A stretch of 64,000 bases of DNA from Agarivorans sp. TSD2052 (GTDB lineage: Bacteria > Pseudomonadota > Gammaproteobacteria > Enterobacterales > Celerinatantimonadaceae): the NCBI RefSeq assembly GCF_023238625.1, contig NZ_CP096670.1, positions 2,035,501 through 2,099,500 of the forward strand, in the 5' to 3' direction. Made by a program: the position numbers and the translations under genes. Below are positions 31,101 to 37,167 of this stretch, one piece after another (within the stretch, counting starts at the first letter, position 1; each line of letters starts with the position of its first letter). Under the pieces are notes generated by a model. That model made no database searches and was not told where the DNA came from. It saw only the letters and a program-made list of their open reading frames with translations.

Positions 31101-31129
31101 AAAAGAGGGCCGTTTTTGCGGCTCTCTTT
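31101..31129 (+). terminator. Terminator after htpX
   Basis: AAAGAG-GCCG-like arm (31101-31112) pairs with CGGCTCTCTTT (31119-31129), with one bulged base, around a T-rich loop. Confidence 0.6.
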
Positions 31130-31279: not shown

Positions 31280-32257
31280 ATGAATTTTATTGTGCCGTCT
31301 TTAAAGTGTTTCAAACAGATCACTGTCATGTTGTTGGCTGGCTTGATAGCTGCTTGCCAAAATCAAACTCAAAATCTTCGCGTTGCTGTCTCTCCATGGC
31401 TTGGTTTTGAGCCAATATTTCTCGCTAAACAACTCGCTTACGAAGGCTCTGCCAGTTACAAGGTTAGTGAGCTTACAACCCCTAGTCATGTCATGCATGC
31501 TATTAAGAGCAACCAAGTAGACGCTGCCTTTCTCAGCCTAACAGAAGTGATTACATTATTATCAGAGCGCGTAGAACTGACCGTCGTTGCGGTTATTGAC
31601 CGCAGCGTCGGTGGTGATGCTTTGGTATCGCAGCAGGCTATTGGCGATATTAGTTCGTTAAAAGGTAAACGGATAGGTTATGAAAGTTTATCCGTTGCGT
31701 CGCTAGTGATCGACGATTGGCTTCAAGACAGTGAGTTGCAAGCGGATGATTTTGTGTTGGTAGAAGCAAAATTAGATGAACAACTTGGCTTGTTTCGCAA
31801 AGGTGATATTAGTGCAGTTCTCACTTCGGGCCCAATCCAGAGCCGTTTAGTTGATAACTTGTCAGGGAATGTTTTATATCAAAGTGCTGTGCAAAGTGAA
31901 CCGTATTATCGTGTATTGGTGGTGCGCACTAAGGCTTTACATGACCAAAAACAAAATGTGCTTAAGCTATTGAATAATTTTTACTCTGCCAGTAGTTGGT
32001 TAGAGGAACATTCTAGAGAAGGCTTCAAGCTGATAGCCAAGCGAACTCAGTTATATAGTAAAGAGGTTAAACAAGCCTATACCAAAATACAGGTTCTAAA
32101 TGCACAGCAAAGTATTTCGCTATTTTCTAGCAATTTTATCTCAGGGCATGCCCAACAAAAAGCGCAGCGCATGGCAGATTTAGAATTGATCCGCCGTGCG
32201 CCGGATTTATCGAGAAACTTCAGTAGTGAGTGGTTAATGGAGTTAACAGGTGTTTAA
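31280..32257 (+). CDS. NrtA/SsuA-type substrate-binding lipoprotein, paired with a GGDEF-EAL gene
   Basis: The 325-residue protein has a signal peptide with lipobox LIAAC (Cys near residue 26), followed by a type 2 periplasmic binding fold of the NMT1/THI5, nitrate-sulfonate-taurine kind (LRVAVSPWLGFEPIFLAKQ and then VDAAFLSLTEV). The ligand cannot be read from the sequence. No ABC permease or ATPase gene is adjacent. Instead the gene overlaps the next gene, a membrane GGDEF-EAL protein, by 8 bases. I infer that it is a periplasmic ligand sensor that feeds that protein, by analogy with NspS and MbaA of Vibrio cholerae, although NspS belongs to the PotD-type family. Confidence 0.8.
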   Translation: MNFIVPSLKCFKQITVMLLAGLIAACQNQTQNLRVAVSPWLGFEPIFLAKQLAYEGSASYKVSELTTPSHVMHAIKSNQVDAAFLSLTEVITLLSERVELTVVAVIDRSVGGDALVSQQAIGDISSLKGKRIGYESLSVASLVIDDWLQDSELQADDFVLVEAKLDEQLGLFRKGDISAVLTSGPIQSRLVDNLSGNVLYQSAVQSEPYYRVLVVRTKALHDQKQNVLKLLNNFYSASSWLEEHSREGFKLIAKRTQLYSKEVKQAYTKIQVLNAQQSISLFSSNFISGHAQQKAQRMADLELIRRAPDLSRNFSSEWLMELTGV

Positions 32258-34736
32258 GATAAAACGGATTTCGCTAAGCATAGTTATTCCTGTATTGGCT
32301 CTGGTGTTGTTGCTAGTTACACAAGGGCTACTGCTGTTGGGTACATTGAACGAACAACAAGACAAAATAGCGGAAGATGCCGCTATTAATCTGTTGAATA
32401 CCGGGTACCAGCTTCAGCAAAGTTTGTCTGATAGCTTGTCGCGTCATCAATGGGATATCGCTGAACGACAAATTACCTTAGTGGCGTTAAATCAAGGCTT
32501 AGACTCGCTGCAAGTTATCGACCCTCAAGGCTTGGTTCAGTTATCTAATCATCGTGCTGAAAAGAGCTTGTTTGCCGCCGATAGTAGCAACTATTTTAAT
32601 GGTGACTTATTTACCAAAGTCAAAAACCAGCGGGCGCCATTGACACAAATACTCCCCCAAAAATGGCAAGTGAATTTGTATTTGCCTCTCGATATGGGGC
32701 CGCGTGAAGATAGTTTAAGACGTGCAGAACATGGAGCAATATTTGTCAGTTACAACCTTGAAAATGCTTGGTTGGTAAAGCGCCAAGAAATTTTTAGTGA
32801 AGCAATAAAAAGTTTTATTTACATGTCGATCGCTATGTTGATTTTAGTGTGGATGTTAAATCGCATTTTAGTAAAACCAGTCAACAAACTAGTGAGTCGC
32901 ACTAAGCAAATTCAAACGCATAATCATTTACAAATTCAAGCGAAAAGTCAGGGTGAAATAGGTGCTTTAGAACATGCTATATCAAAAATGGCATCTGGCA
33001 TTCATAGCAGTTTTGCCCAGTTGCAACGAAGCGAACAACGTTGGCAATTCGCATTAAGTGGATCGGGGGATGGGATCTGGGATTGGAACCTACTGACCAA
33101 CACGGTTTATTATTCACCTCAATGGAAATCAATGCTGGGATTTCAAGATTCAGAGGTAGGAGAAAAAATTGAAGAGTGGGAATCAAGAATTCACCCGGAC
33201 GACTTAGACAAAACTCTCAATGAGCTTCGTAAGCACCTTAAAAAGAAAAATAAGGTCTACGAGAGTATGCATCGCGTAAGGCATAAAGATGGTCATTATC
33301 TATGGGTCTTATCAAGAGGGATGGTTGTAGAACGTAGCGAGCGTGGTTTGCCTTCGCGTGTTATTAGTACGCAAACCAATATTTCAGAAGTCCGCTCGGC
33401 TCAAGAATTGGTGCGTTTCCAGTCGTCTCACGATGATATTACGCGTTTGTCGAATCGTCGTAAGCTATTAGAAAACTTAGACCTCGAGATCGACAGGAGC
33501 AAACGTAGCAAAAAAGTCGGCGCGCTGATTTATTTGGACATTGACCATTTTAAAAACGTTAACGATATGCTGGGACATGCAGCCGGAGACCTGTTGTTAC
33601 GCTTAATTGCTCACCGTCTTCGAGAGGGCCGCAGTAGCGCCGAAACTGTAGCACGGTTAGGTGGCGATGAGTTTGCGTTGTTGGTTCCTAACTTATCCAA
33701 TGATCGCGAAGAAGCGAAAAATTTAGCGACTGAGATGGCGGTTGAATTAAGCCGAATTATTCATAAAGAATTTATTATCAAAGGCAACCAGATCACCCTT
33801 AATTTAACCACCGGTGTTGCCTTGTTCCCGAACCTTGAAAGTAATGCTACTGAGATTTTGCGCCAAGCCGATATCGCGCTTTATCATGGCAAAGATTTAG
33901 CGCGTTCTAGTGTTCATGTTTTCTCGGATAAAATGGCCGACGAAATTCAAGAACGCCACTTGCTAACAAAAATGATGCGAGAAGCCCTAGAAAACGAAGA
34001 CATGGTTGCCTATTTTCAGCCTCGTTATAACGCAAATTTTGAAATGGTGGGAGCCGAGACCTTATTACGTTGGTTTGACAGTAAAATGGGTTGGATATCT
34101 CCTGGTCGTTTTATTCCTCTCGCAGAAGAAAATGGACTCATCCTGTTGCTAGGACAATGGGTTATGCGAAGTGCCTGTGAAACCTTAAAAGTATGGCAAG
34201 ACCGAGGGCTTCCCGATAACTTTAAAACCTTGTCAATTAACGTTAGTCCTAACCAGTTTCACCGAGACACTTTTGTCCAAGAAACTATTAATATTATTCA
34301 AGCGACAGGTTGTGACCCAAAACTTATAGAGCTTGAAATTACCGAAGGCGTATTAGTCGATAACGTTCAGGATACGGTTGAAAAAATTCAAGCCCTCCGT
34401 GACATTGGCGTTCGCTTCTCCGTTGATGACTTTGGTACTGGCTACTCTTCATTAGCGTATTTAAACAAACTCCCCATTAATTGCTTAAAAATTGATAAAT
34501 CGTTTGTTAGCGAATTGCAAAGCGGTGGCAGTGAGTGTGCCATTATCACGACTATTATTTCTATGGCGGAAAACCTAGACCTAGAAGTTATTGCCGAAGG
34601 GGTAGAGACAGAGTATCAGCTAGAGTTTTTAAAATATCGTCGTTGTACGGTTTATCAAGGTTTCTACTTTAGCGAAGCTTTAGAGCCAGAAATATTTGAA
34701 GATCGCTTATTTATCGGTCAGGCAGAGATAGCCTAA
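32250..34736 (+). CDS. Membrane GGDEF-EAL protein with HAMP and PAS domains
   Basis: The 828-residue protein is predicted to make and/or degrade cyclic di-GMP. Order: membrane helix (7-30), periplasmic sensor region (31-185), helix (186-206), HAMP (207-258), PAS (262-375), GGDEF (385-550) and EAL (570-815). GGDEF is intact at 471-475, but the RxxD inhibitory site is absent. The EAL motif reads ETL (603-605); the other phosphodiesterase residues are visible (NVSPNQF, ELEITEG, DDFGTGYSS, AEGVET, YQGFYFS). Start is GTG at 32250, overlapping the binding-protein gene. Dual activity is plausible; which one dominates is not visible. Confidence 0.92.
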   Translation: MFKIKRISLSIVIPVLALVLLLVTQGLLLLGTLNEQQDKIAEDAAINLLNTGYQLQQSLSDSLSRHQWDIAERQITLVALNQGLDSLQVIDPQGLVQLSNHRAEKSLFAADSSNYFNGDLFTKVKNQRAPLTQILPQKWQVNLYLPLDMGPREDSLRRAEHGAIFVSYNLENAWLVKRQEIFSEAIKSFIYMSIAMLILVWMLNRILVKPVNKLVSRTKQIQTHNHLQIQAKSQGEIGALEHAISKMASGIHSSFAQLQRSEQRWQFALSGSGDGIWDWNLLTNTVYYSPQWKSMLGFQDSEVGEKIEEWESRIHPDDLDKTLNELRKHLKKKNKVYESMHRVRHKDGHYLWVLSRGMVVERSERGLPSRVISTQTNISEVRSAQELVRFQSSHDDITRLSNRRKLLENLDLEIDRSKRSKKVGALIYLDIDHFKNVNDMLGHAAGDLLLRLIAHRLREGRSSAETVARLGGDEFALLVPNLSNDREEAKNLATEMAVELSRIIHKEFIIKGNQITLNLTTGVALFPNLESNATEILRQADIALYHGKDLARSSVHVFSDKMADEIQERHLLTKMMREALENEDMVAYFQPRYNANFEMVGAETLLRWFDSKMGWISPGRFIPLAEENGLILLLGQWVMRSACETLKVWQDRGLPDNFKTLSINVSPNQFHRDTFVQETINIIQATGCDPKLIELEITEGVLVDNVQDTVEKIQALRDIGVRFSVDDFGTGYSSLAYLNKLPINCLKIDKSFVSELQSGGSECAIITTIISMAENLDLEVIAEGVETEYQLEFLKYRRCTVYQGFYFSEALEPEIFEDRLFIGQAEIA

Positions 34737-34945: not shown

Positions 34946-34979
34946 AAATAGGGCCTAGTTACTAGGCCCTATTTATTTT
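34946..34979. terminator. Bidirectional terminator, 13-bp perfect stem
   Basis: AAATAGGGCCTAG (34946-34958) and CTAGGCCCTATTT (34962-34974) pair around TTA. They lie between the ends of the convergent GGDEF-EAL and oxidoreductase genes and carry A/T runs on both sides. The rest of the 292-base gap shows nothing else I can support. Confidence 0.85.
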
Positions 34980-35028: not shown

Positions 35029-37167
35029 TTAACCCTTTCTTGTCCAAGTATGAAACTTTTCTAAGTATGACAGGACCTTCTGTGGAGCATGATTACGTTT
35101 CCACTCTCCGGCTACATATTTGTTTGCTTCCATCATGGTTGGGTAAGCATGAATTGTTCCCAATATCTTATTCAAACCTAGTCCGTGTTTCATCGCTAGG
35201 GTAAACTCAGCAAGCAATTCGCCCGCATGTTCACCTACTATAGTCGCACCTAAAATTTTATCTTTACCTGGCACAGTAAGTACCTTAATGAAGCCATTGG
35301 TGGCGCCTTCTGCGATTGCTCGGTCGAGTTCTTCTAATTGAAACTCGGTCACTTCGTAGGCAATCTCTTGCTGTTTCGCATCTTGTTCGTTCAGTCCTAC
35401 TCGTGCGACCTCTGGGTAAGTATAAGTTGCCGCTGGAATGACCGAATAATCAGCTTTAAATTTCTTAAATCGGCCAAACAGTGCGTTCACTGCTGCGTAC
35501 CAAGCTTGGTGGGCTGCAAAGTGGGTAAACTGGTAAGGGCCTGCTACATCACCCACAGCATAAATATTGGGAAAGTTAGTTTGAAGGTGTGCATTAACAG
35601 CCACAGTGCCTCGTTCGGAATTCTCAATCCCTAATTCTTCTAAACCAAAACCTTTAGTATTTGCCACTCTTCCAAGCGCAAGTATAACTTTGTCAAATTC
35701 TACTTGTTGCTGCTGTTCGCCTTGGGTGAGAATGACACTTTGTTTACCTTCATGGTTGTGAAAGCTTATTGCTTTCCACCCCAACTTAAGATCTATGCCT
35801 TCTTTGGTAAATTGTTCTTCTAATAACTGACTAACCTCTATATCTTCGCGAATAAGCAAGTGATCGGCCATTTCAACTTGAGTGACCTGAGAACCTAAAC
35901 GAGCGAAACTTTGGGTGAGTTCACAGCCGATAGGACCGCCGCCTAATACTAATAGCTTTTGAGGTAACTCTGTTAGCTGCCATAAGCTATCTGAGGTTAG
36001 AAAATCAACATCTTGCAAGCCTGGAATAGCCGGAACCAGTGGCCGAGCGCCAGTAGCAATCACGATGTTTTGAGTAGTAACCAGTTTGCCGTCAATTTCA
36101 ACTTCCCAAGGGCTACGAATATGCGCAGTGCCTTGAACGCAATTCACGCCTAAGCGGGTGTAACGTTCCACTGAATCATGGGGCTCAACTTGCTTTATAA
36201 CTTGATGAACGCGTTCCATCACCTTCGCAAAATTGGCTTTAGCCGCCACTTTTTCGTAACCAAAATTTTCAGCATTGTTGGCTTCATAAGCAAACTTAGC
36301 GCTACGAATTAGCGCCTTAGATGGCACGCAACCAGTGTTTAAGCAGTCGCCACCCATTAAGTGTTTTTCAACTAGTGTTACTTTAGCTTTTACCGCTGCA
36401 GCTATATACGAGCTCACTAAACCGCCTGCGCCCGCGCCAATCACCAATAAATTATTGTCAAAAGATGTGGGTTTTTTGTAAGGCGCGTACACCCGACCTT
36501 GCTTAATTTTGTTTAAAATTGCTTTGCTAATGTAAGGAAGCACACCTAAAAGCGTAAAAGCGATGAGTAACGAAGGGGACAGTATTCCTGATAAGCTGTC
36601 GAGCTTTGCTAATTCTGTACCTGCATTAACGTAGACGATAGTCGCTGGAATCATCCCCAACTGACTTACCCAATAGAAGGTTTTGAGCGGCAGTTTAGTC
36701 AACGCCATCACAAGGTTAATAAGAAAGAAAGGGAAAATAGGGATTAGACGTAAGCTAAACAGATAAAATGCACCTTCTTTTTCAATGCCTTGATTGATGC
36801 TTTGTAGTTTGTCTGCATAACGCTTCTCTAGGCTATCTCTTAATAAGTATCTCGCCACAAAAAATGCACAGGTTGCTCCAATACTACTGGCAAAAGACAC
36901 CATTATGACCCCATTCACCACGCCAAATAGAGCTCCCGCTAGCAGGGTCAGCAATGCGGCTCCCGGTATTGAAAAAGCGGTGACAAATATATATAGGAAA
37001 AAGTAACCAACAATAGATACAAAGTAATGTTGCTCTACGCTAGATTGCAAGTCCGATTGGCTCTGTTTGATGGTGTCAAAATTTAACCATTGGCCCAAAT
37101 CGAACCACCATGTAAGACCGATAATAACGACAAGTACCGCTACAACAATCTGTTTATTCGCTTTCAT
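35029..37167 (-). CDS. VTT-domain membrane protein fused to a mercuric-reductase-like flavin disulfide oxidoreductase
   Basis: The 712-residue protein has two parts. Residues 1-225 are a TVP38/TMEM64 (VTT, DedA-like) membrane domain with about five helices, including FSIPGAALLTLLAGALFG and LRLIPIFPFFLIN. Residues 238-712 are a class I pyridine nucleotide-disulfide oxidoreductase: FAD loop GAGAGG (244-249), redox-active Cys275/Cys280 in CLNTGC, a second NAD(P) Rossmann loop GGGPIG and a C-terminal interface with HAYPTMMEA carrying the His/Glu pair. Such fusions are known in other bacteria, but their substrate is not established. No mer genes are nearby, and the N-terminal metal-binding domain of MerA is absent. 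Confidence 0.88.
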   Translation of the reverse strand: MKANKQIVVAVLVVIIGLTWWFDLGQWLNFDTIKQSQSDLQSSVEQHYFVSIVGYFFLYIFVTAFSIPGAALLTLLAGALFGVVNGVIMVSFASSIGATCAFFVARYLLRDSLEKRYADKLQSINQGIEKEGAFYLFSLRLIPIFPFFLINLVMALTKLPLKTFYWVSQLGMIPATIVYVNAGTELAKLDSLSGILSPSLLIAFTLLGVLPYISKAILNKIKQGRVYAPYKKPTSFDNNLLVIGAGAGGLVSSYIAAAVKAKVTLVEKHLMGGDCLNTGCVPSKALIRSAKFAYEANNAENFGYEKVAAKANFAKVMERVHQVIKQVEPHDSVERYTRLGVNCVQGTAHIRSPWEVEIDGKLVTTQNIVIATGARPLVPAIPGLQDVDFLTSDSLWQLTELPQKLLVLGGGPIGCELTQSFARLGSQVTQVEMADHLLIREDIEVSQLLEEQFTKEGIDLKLGWKAISFHNHEGKQSVILTQGEQQQQVEFDKVILALGRVANTKGFGLEELGIENSERGTVAVNAHLQTNFPNIYAVGDVAGPYQFTHFAAHQAWYAAVNALFGRFKKFKADYSVIPAATYTYPEVARVGLNEQDAKQQEIAYEVTEFQLEELDRAIAEGATNGFIKVLTVPGKDKILGATIVGEHAGELLAEFTLAMKHGLGLNKILGTIHAYPTMMEANKYVAGEWKRNHAPQKVLSYLEKFHTWTRKG

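Follow-up and report, generated by a model that had tools for sequence, protein, structure and literature searches.

A binding lipoprotein gene overlapping a GGDEF-EAL receptor gene in Agarivorans: a probable ligand-to-c-di-GMP sensor pair

What is the task of a substrate-binding lipoprotein whose gene overlaps that of a GGDEF-EAL membrane protein? We addressed this question for a gene pair in a window of 64,000 nucleotides from the marine bacterium Agarivorans sp. TSD2052, the window being the whole stretch of DNA that was analysed. The initial annotation described an NrtA/SsuA-type lipoprotein gene overlapping the membrane protein gene by 8 bases, without an adjacent ABC permease or ATPase gene. 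ORF calls agree with this overlap, and the neighbouring ORFs, named from their translations, include neither a permease nor an ATPase. The layout is as follows:

31280..32257, + strand: NMT1/SsuA-family solute-binding lipoprotein, 325 aa (gene 1; ORF, Pfam, NCBIfam, AlphaFold model)
32250..34736, + strand: 828-aa GGDEF-EAL membrane receptor with a GTG start (gene 2; ORF, Pfam)
32250..32257, + strand: 8-base overlap of gene 1 and gene 2 (ORF coordinates)
34946..34974, + strand: terminator-like hairpin 3' of the pair (hairpin scan; regional count not above shuffles)

Terminator-like sites number 5 in the region against a shuffle mean of 4.1, and the promoter scan gave 0 sites 5' of the pair and 2 in the region (8.4 in shuffles). 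The pair is preceded by an M48 (HtpX-like) protease gene, named from its translation, and followed by a gene on the opposite strand. A possible hairpin 3' of the HtpX gene (about 31104-31129) was seen by eye and is absent from the scan output. The bioA-bioBFCD genes are also neighbours of the pair, and the bio-htpX order is found upstream of it in most of the loci L022-L032. Biotin sensing was considered on account of these neighbours and rejected: locus L033 keeps the pair and HtpX while the upstream bio genes are absent, and the same order presumably exists in Vibrio without the lipoprotein/receptor pair, which makes synteny the more economical explanation.

Gene 1 scores above the Pfam cut-offs of NMT1_2 (33.2 against 24.7 bits) and NMT1 (32.7 against 20.5). 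These are its only Pfam matches at E<=0.1, and the PotD family is not among them. Its top NCBIfam match, SsuA_fam, lies under the cut-off (99.2 against 163.5). The two Pfam families and a lipobox-like LIAAC agree with the type of lipoprotein proposed at first. The AlphaFold model (pLDDT 92.8) has the two-lobe fold of binding proteins and is closest to TauA (6ssy_B; Z 30.8, rmsd 2.2, 284 aligned), with SsuA (2x26_A; Z 30.6) level as a fold match; both are also the nearest solved structures by sequence. Three residues are listed below, the TauA-equivalent positions having been taken from a HMMER alignment read by hand:

31355..31357, + strand: predicted lipid anchor Cys26 in the lipobox-like LIAAC (sequence; 73 of 77 signalling relatives have Cys here)
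31616..31618, + strand: Asp113, aligned with TauA Glu106 (77 of 77 relatives)
31910..31912, + strand: Arg211, aligned with TauA Asp205 (67 of 77 relatives have Asp)

A passage of PMC6906117 describes TauA Glu106 as a contact of the ligand amine. Among the signalling relatives S109, G111 and D113 are conserved in all 77 and R255 in 76, and these positions lie outside the pattern used for collecting the relatives. W40, G42 and E44 were dropped as invariants: the collection pattern, W[LPI]G[FY]E[PT][ILV][YF]L, contains them, and their invariance is therefore not evidence.

Gene 2 has the architecture of a two-TM receptor:

32280..32336, + strand: transmembrane segment 1, residues 11-29 (hydropathy)
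32337..32816, + strand: periplasmic single-Cache-like input module, residues 30-189 (AlphaFold, fold match; common to both receptor kinds)
32817..32873, + strand: transmembrane segment 2, residues 190-208 (hydropathy)
32856..33002, + strand: HAMP, residues 203-251 (Pfam, under cut-off, 21.4 against 25)
33105..33371, + strand: PAS_3, residues 286-374 (Pfam, well above cut-off)
33426..33899, + strand: GGDEF domain, residues 393-550 (Pfam, well above cut-off)
33660-33674, + strand: GGDEF motif (sequence)
33972..34676, + strand: EAL domain, residues 575-809 (Pfam, well above cut-off)
34056-34064, + strand: EAL motif, reading ETL (sequence)

Of the four domains named initially, PAS, GGDEF and EAL are thus firm and HAMP stays below its Pfam cut-off; the periplasmic region, put at 155 residues, is present with a length of about 160. 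Judged by its sequence, gene 2 carries the GG(D/E)EF motif of cyclases, and by eye no RxxD is found five residues ahead of it. In an alignment with solved EAL proteins the residues that are catalytic in EAL enzymes are all present, in agreement with the earlier statement on the key EAL residues. Motilimonas, the nearest outside genus, has kept the EAL motifs but no longer carries the GGDEF motif (3 of 3). The output in the Agarivorans lineage is probably c-di-GMP hydrolysis.

All seven genomes of the genus that were examined, counting the window's own, keep the pair, as do 12 of 12 loci L022-L033, with a split receptor frame in L028. Two genomes of the same family lack it: G008 gives no match at E<=1e-10, and in G010 the single find is a distant binding protein whose neighbours are ABC genes. 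Since dS against the window itself is saturated, dN/dS was determined among three closer congeners, which gave 0.035-0.042 (gene 1) and 0.013-0.015 (gene 2). For the wider comparison the best 80 of 294 binding-protein relatives were used, of which 79 are testable for a neighbour. A membrane receptor gene lies directly downstream in 78 of these 79, so the co-conservation search suggested by the initial annotation finds the pairing conserved in the genus and far outside it. The exact 4-base gene overlap occurs in 31 of 69 labelled pairs; at locus L072 the binding protein has no adjoining receptor. Long ORFs in L054, L068 and L099, candidates for a natural SBP-receptor fusion, turned out to be overlapping frames. 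Of the 78 partners, 40 carry c-di-GMP domains, 33 are histidine kinases and 5 are unassigned or cut. Both the frequent histidine-kinase output and the one periplasmic module common to the two receptor kinds were outside the view of the initial annotation.

The module itself (gene 2 residues 30-189) is predicted by AlphaFold (pLDDT 94.2) to adopt a Cache/PDC fold between the two TM segments. The single Cache domains of WalK (4ywz_B; Z 16.3, rmsd 2.7, 134 aligned) and CitA (Z 13.5) are its nearest folds, yet the identity is about 10%. At E<=0.01, Pfam Cache models of 0 families match the window's module; sCache_3_2, dCache_1 and CHASE4 are each found in 1 of 68 module members, and no single Pfam family matches more than that. 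Two TM segments with a loop of 130-167 residues (median 156) are present in the partners at 72 of 78 loci. A profile built from 30 kinase-partner modules recovers 35 of 36 c-di-GMP partners; the reverse profile, from 34 c-di-GMP-partner modules, recovers 33 of 33 kinase partners. Beyond the listed partners each profile matches 2 of 788 ORFs, one being the real partner in L099. One Cache-like module of about 156 residues is common to kinase and c-di-GMP receptors, and the same putative two-gene sensor, its outputs being interchangeable, occurs in several bacterial phyla.

Trees of both partners show how often the outputs change. The 77 signalling binding proteins are split from 12 ABC-linked ones by one branch (SH-aLRT 94); L147, where a GGDEF gene follows the binding protein, falls outside the signalling clade on a very long branch. 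The output type switches at least 13 times on the binding-protein tree and on the Cache tree. Distances between binding proteins correlate with those between Cache modules (r 0.51, the top value in 2000 shuffles being 0.22), also across output classes (r 0.36; highest shuffle 0.24), although common ancestry or joint transfer could produce this co-variation with no contact.

Does the lipoprotein then act on the receptor? Cache domains usually bind small ligands themselves, and the WalK/CitA-like fold would suit a receptor that senses its ligand directly, the lipoprotein only delivering, buffering or sequestering the ligand without allosteric docking. Moreover, module-bearing receptors without a binding protein exist. 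In a module-only search the binding protein adjoins the module in 24 of the 29 best loci (the window's own excluded) and is missing in the other 5 (one cut by a contig end), and in 8 of 15 weaker loci. A Pfam scan of seven upstream proteins from these 13 loci (five strong, two weaker) found no binding-protein family. The module may therefore sense alone in some proteins. For the pair as a whole we nonetheless consider direct sensing unlikely, as the co-variation across output classes and the near-constant pairing favour a specific partner, though not decisively.

It could also be argued that the lipoprotein belongs to an ordinary ABC importer whose permease and ATPase are encoded elsewhere, its co-transcription with the GGDEF-EAL gene being incidental. 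Its fold is nearest to importer proteins, and passages of PMC9602780 mention binding proteins encoded apart from their transporter genes. TauA and SsuA serve importers, and TauA Asp205 corresponds to Arg211 in gene 1. The ABC-linked relatives, however, lie apart from the signalling group. In the best 80 of 294 loci, permease-like genes number 0 up to three genes away from the binding protein, by a check with two reference permeases that detected permeases in 17 of 34 control loci and with many flanks short; an ATPase-like gene is present in 3 of the 80. In the window's genome, a Tau/Ssu-type permease query finds five permease loci. Each has its own binding-protein gene, so no orphan permease of this type is seen, and no cognate permease and ATPase for gene 1 were found adjoining it or its relatives or to spare among these five loci. 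An unconserved pairing or a transporter encoded elsewhere had been named at the outset as evidence against a sensor; with 78 of 79 loci paired and no orphan among the five, an importer role is improbable. That the protein is an enzyme making or destroying the molecule sensed by the receptor, as THI5 and DszB among its solved sequence and fold relatives might suggest, is most improbable, since these match gene 1 less well than TauA and SsuA do, no catalytic residue was identified, and the lipoprotein signal and Asp113 at the TauA ligand contact suit binding better.

We regard the pair as probably a dedicated, transporter-free ligand-to-c-di-GMP sensor with the lipoprotein as co-receptor. The cleft of the lipoprotein would bind a small extracytoplasmic ligand, which may or may not be the nitrogen, sulfur or pyrimidine compound suggested initially, and its open or closed form would be presented to the single-Cache-like domain of the receptor instead of to an ABC importer. 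The signal would run from Cache through TM2-HAMP-PAS to the catalytic domains and alter the c-di-GMP level, most likely via the EAL phosphodiesterase. Four parts of this model are inferred: contact between lipoprotein and receptor, a dependence on ligand, the direction of the effect, and the phosphodiesterase being the main output.

A limited number of studied systems already show receptors under the control of SBPs. In NspS-MbaA of Vibrio cholerae and Sinorhizobium meliloti, as passages of PMC8967002 and PMC9993111 describe, a periplasmic binding protein controls an adjoining two-TM GGDEF-EAL protein. The Agarivorans genes have the same arrangement, but NspS is a PotD-family polyamine binder whereas the lipoprotein belongs to NMT1/SsuA (Pfam), and the Agarivorans-type family also has kinases as partners. 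In ScrABC of Vibrio parahaemolyticus, according to passages of PMC11315295, ligand-bound ScrB switches on the phosphodiesterase of ScrC, which is likewise a GGDEF-EAL protein; there, however, the aminotransferase ScrA makes the signal, and no ScrA-like synthase gene adjoins the Agarivorans pair. SBP-activated sensor kinases such as BctC-BctE rely on a binding protein presenting the ligand to the receptor's periplasmic domain (passages of PMC9602780 and PMC11113362). BctC differs in being of the TctC family and in also serving its transporter, while for the Agarivorans lipoprotein no transporter was found. As the pairing is conserved and no orphan permease was seen, the best reading is the NspS-MbaA design built on a different family of binding proteins, as suggested initially; ScrB-ScrC would work in a similar way. 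This reading draws on gene order, co-variation and fold.

For 13 signalling SBP families a passage of PMC9602780 cites a 2021 review. Our literature search found nothing, in titles or passages, describing a family of NMT1/SsuA-type SBPs with Cache receptors. In Dechloromonas, according to a table of PMC2907700, a periplasmic ABC component of 260 aa is the neighbour of a 523-aa GGDEF protein, so such SBP/GGDEF neighbours have already been printed there without comment. We give even chances to a broader proposal, an undescribed transporter-free co-receptor family. Here one SBP clade and one Cache-like docking module would form a portable extracytoplasmic input cassette. Its carriers are named to ten phyla, and in evolution it would have been coupled at least 13 times to either c-di-GMP enzymes or phosphorelay kinases; the invariant acidic residue aligned with TauA Glu106 would set the ligand class, and an Asp-to-Arg change at the TauA Asp205 position would have retuned it in the Agarivorans lineage.

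If real, an SBP lineage devoted to signalling would be a natural series for studying the SBP-Cache interface. Having one module for second-messenger and phosphorelay outputs, the family would show which receptors need a co-receptor, and it would help to reveal the ligand that so many organisms monitor. Annotators would have a reason to drop the name 'nitrate/sulfonate transporter' for such genes, and the Agarivorans pair would gain a testable role in c-di-GMP control.

The two genes of the pair overlap at their junction:

31280-32257, + strand: gene 1, binding protein of NMT1/SsuA type; Cys26 is lipobox-like
32250-34736, + strand: gene 2, receptor (TM-periplasmic domain-TM-HAMP-PAS-GGDEF-EAL, the HAMP being sub-threshold)

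The 8-base overlap claimed in the initial annotation follows from these coordinates, and the claimed absence of adjacent ABC genes holds as well: the upstream neighbour encodes an HtpX-like protease and the next gene downstream lies on the opposite strand. The EAL motif of gene 2 reads ETL, and solved EAL proteins align with this domain along its length. Window positions 35029-37167 encode a 712-aa protein that, judged by eye, looks like a TVP38/DedA-like membrane part fused to a flavoprotein resembling mercuric reductase.

The pair is present in all seven same-genus genomes (the window's included) and in 12/12 loci L022-L033, which extend the sample to Motilimonas-type genomes and G021, two more genera of the family; all 12 have the HtpX-like gene upstream of the pair. 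A binding-protein match at E<=1e-10 was obtained in 17 of 60 relatives; the related genome G008 has none at this threshold, and G010 holds only a distant binding protein, adjoining ABC genes.

Scanning genome contigs with alignment A1 confirmed 294 relatives, of which the best 80 (L042-L121, partly from the same genomes as the genus and family comparison) were kept. Among these best 80, a receptor gene comes next in 78 of the 79 testable loci (the sequence at L089 stops short of the following gene), showing that the pairing is conserved beyond the genus; L072 has no receptor gene next to the binding protein. Partners carry c-di-GMP domains in 40 loci (36 labelled directly; L044, whose frame is split; and L065, L097 and L099 after correction of the ORF filter's wrong-frame choice) and are histidine kinases in 33. 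Three are HAMP-PAS proteins with no output class assigned (L057, L080, L087) and two are receptors truncated at a contig edge (L054, L068). In Pseudoalteromonas, an opposite-strand response-regulator gene stands beside the kinase-type pair (L093, L104, L109), joined in L093 and L104 by an EAL-domain gene; given these neighbours, the kinase version may reach c-di-GMP there too.

The search detected no permease-like gene within three genes of the binding protein at any of the 80 loci (E<=1e-4; control loci were positive in 17 of 34, at E<=1e-3 instead), and ATPase-like genes occur in three (L089, L092, L102). In the window's genome, one Tau/Ssu-type permease query found five permease loci. Each has its own binding-protein gene (NMT1-type, NMT1_2-type, OpuAC, PhnD and that of a urea-carboxylase-type locus), so that, within reach of this query, no spare permease is left over for gene 1.

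The receptors share a periplasmic input module: two hydrophobic segments lie 130-167 residues apart in 72 of 78 loci (median 156). Its AlphaFold model (68 aligned modules, pLDDT 94.2) best matches single-Cache domains (WalK: Z 16.3, rmsd 2.7, 134 aligned; CitA lower, Z 13.5), and any one Pfam family matches at most a single module among the 68. A profile of 30 kinase modules and one of 34 c-di-GMP modules (window included) each recover 35/36 c-di-GMP and 33/33 kinase partners; across 788 ORFs each gives two matches beyond the listed partners, one of these being the partner of L099. The sole c-di-GMP partner missed by both, L100, has a PhnD-like domain in place of the module. At L035:8307-12010, L036:8366-12573 and L100:5941-11291, one starred group of the binding-protein tree, a lipoprotein gene precedes a receptor with a PhnD-like (Phosphonate-bd) sensor that continues as PAS-GGDEF(-EAL); a binding protein is thus paired with a receptor built from another one.

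With only the module as query, 62 of 274 genomes of the class gave a match at E<=1e-6; 30 loci were listed, one being the window's own. The binding protein adjoins the module in 24 of the 29 others, and longer flanks of the other five revealed none (L198 ends at a contig edge); it is present at 7 of 15 weaker hits. Pairing is therefore the rule for close module members, and divergent modules also occur alone. Module-bearing receptors with no upstream binding protein of gene 1's family (L196, L197, L200, L201, L202, L204, L208, L210, L211, L212) may sense directly or may use a distant co-receptor. NMT1 matches also lie inside very long open frames (L133, L134, L136 and, by the family search, L135 and L143); the first three match GGDEF as well and apparently encode binding-protein domains fused to GGDEF proteins.

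The binding-protein tree (n=90) takes in the window, 67 loci from the set of 80 and 22 others; 13 near-copies or broken loci were omitted. A branch with SH-aLRT 94 separates all 77 signalling rows from the 12 ABC-linked rows and from L147, a binding protein followed by a GGDEF gene (branch length 4.65). Ten phyla are represented among the organisms named in record titles, though many are MAGs and single placements may be wrong. In a set of 61 pairs, 32 of them with c-di-GMP and 29 with kinase partners, each of the two trees (binding protein and Cache) requires a minimum of 13 output switches. Binding-protein distances correlate with Cache distances, shared-descent component included, at r 0.51 (maximum of 0.22 in 2000 shuffles) and, between pairs of different output, at r 0.36 (shuffle maximum 0.24).

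The closest folds to the binding-protein model (pLDDT 92.8) are TauA and SsuA, which tie at Z 30.8 and 30.6. Among the 77 signalling proteins Ser109, Gly111 and Asp113 are invariant, and Arg255 (76/77) and Cys26 (73/77) nearly so. In an alignment read by hand, Asp113 and residue 211 align with TauA Glu106 and Asp205, which contact taurine's amine according to a passage of PMC6906117. Residue 211 is Asp in 67/77 signalling and 12/12 ABC-linked proteins, and Arg in the window's protein and four relatives. These positions hint at a ligand bearing an amine or cation in much of the family, and perhaps a changed ligand in the Agarivorans lineage.

Passages of PMC8967002 and PMC9993111 describe NspS with norspermidine as favouring MbaA cyclase activity, free MbaA being a phosphodiesterase; part of PMC11315295 describes ScrB with its signal as turning ScrC to phosphodiesterase. 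By analogy, the c-di-GMP effect of the window's pair could take either direction. The GG(D/E)(D/E)F motif is kept in 29 and the DDFGxG motif of EAL in 32 of the 36 labelled c-di-GMP partners; both are intact in gene 2. Since the GGDEF motif is lost but the EAL motif retained in 3 of 3 Motilimonas receptors, phosphodiesterase activity is favoured as the probable regulated output in the window's clade.

Receptor switching by binding proteins is an established principle, and a section of PMC9602780 reports 13 or more SBP families for it; our literature searches found no paper on the signalling family of gene 1. The proposed NspS-MbaA-like design would follow the same principle with an NMT1/SsuA-type protein. 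What would set it apart from the known binding-protein-switched receptors is this other binding-protein family, together with a shared module whose outputs are exchanged.
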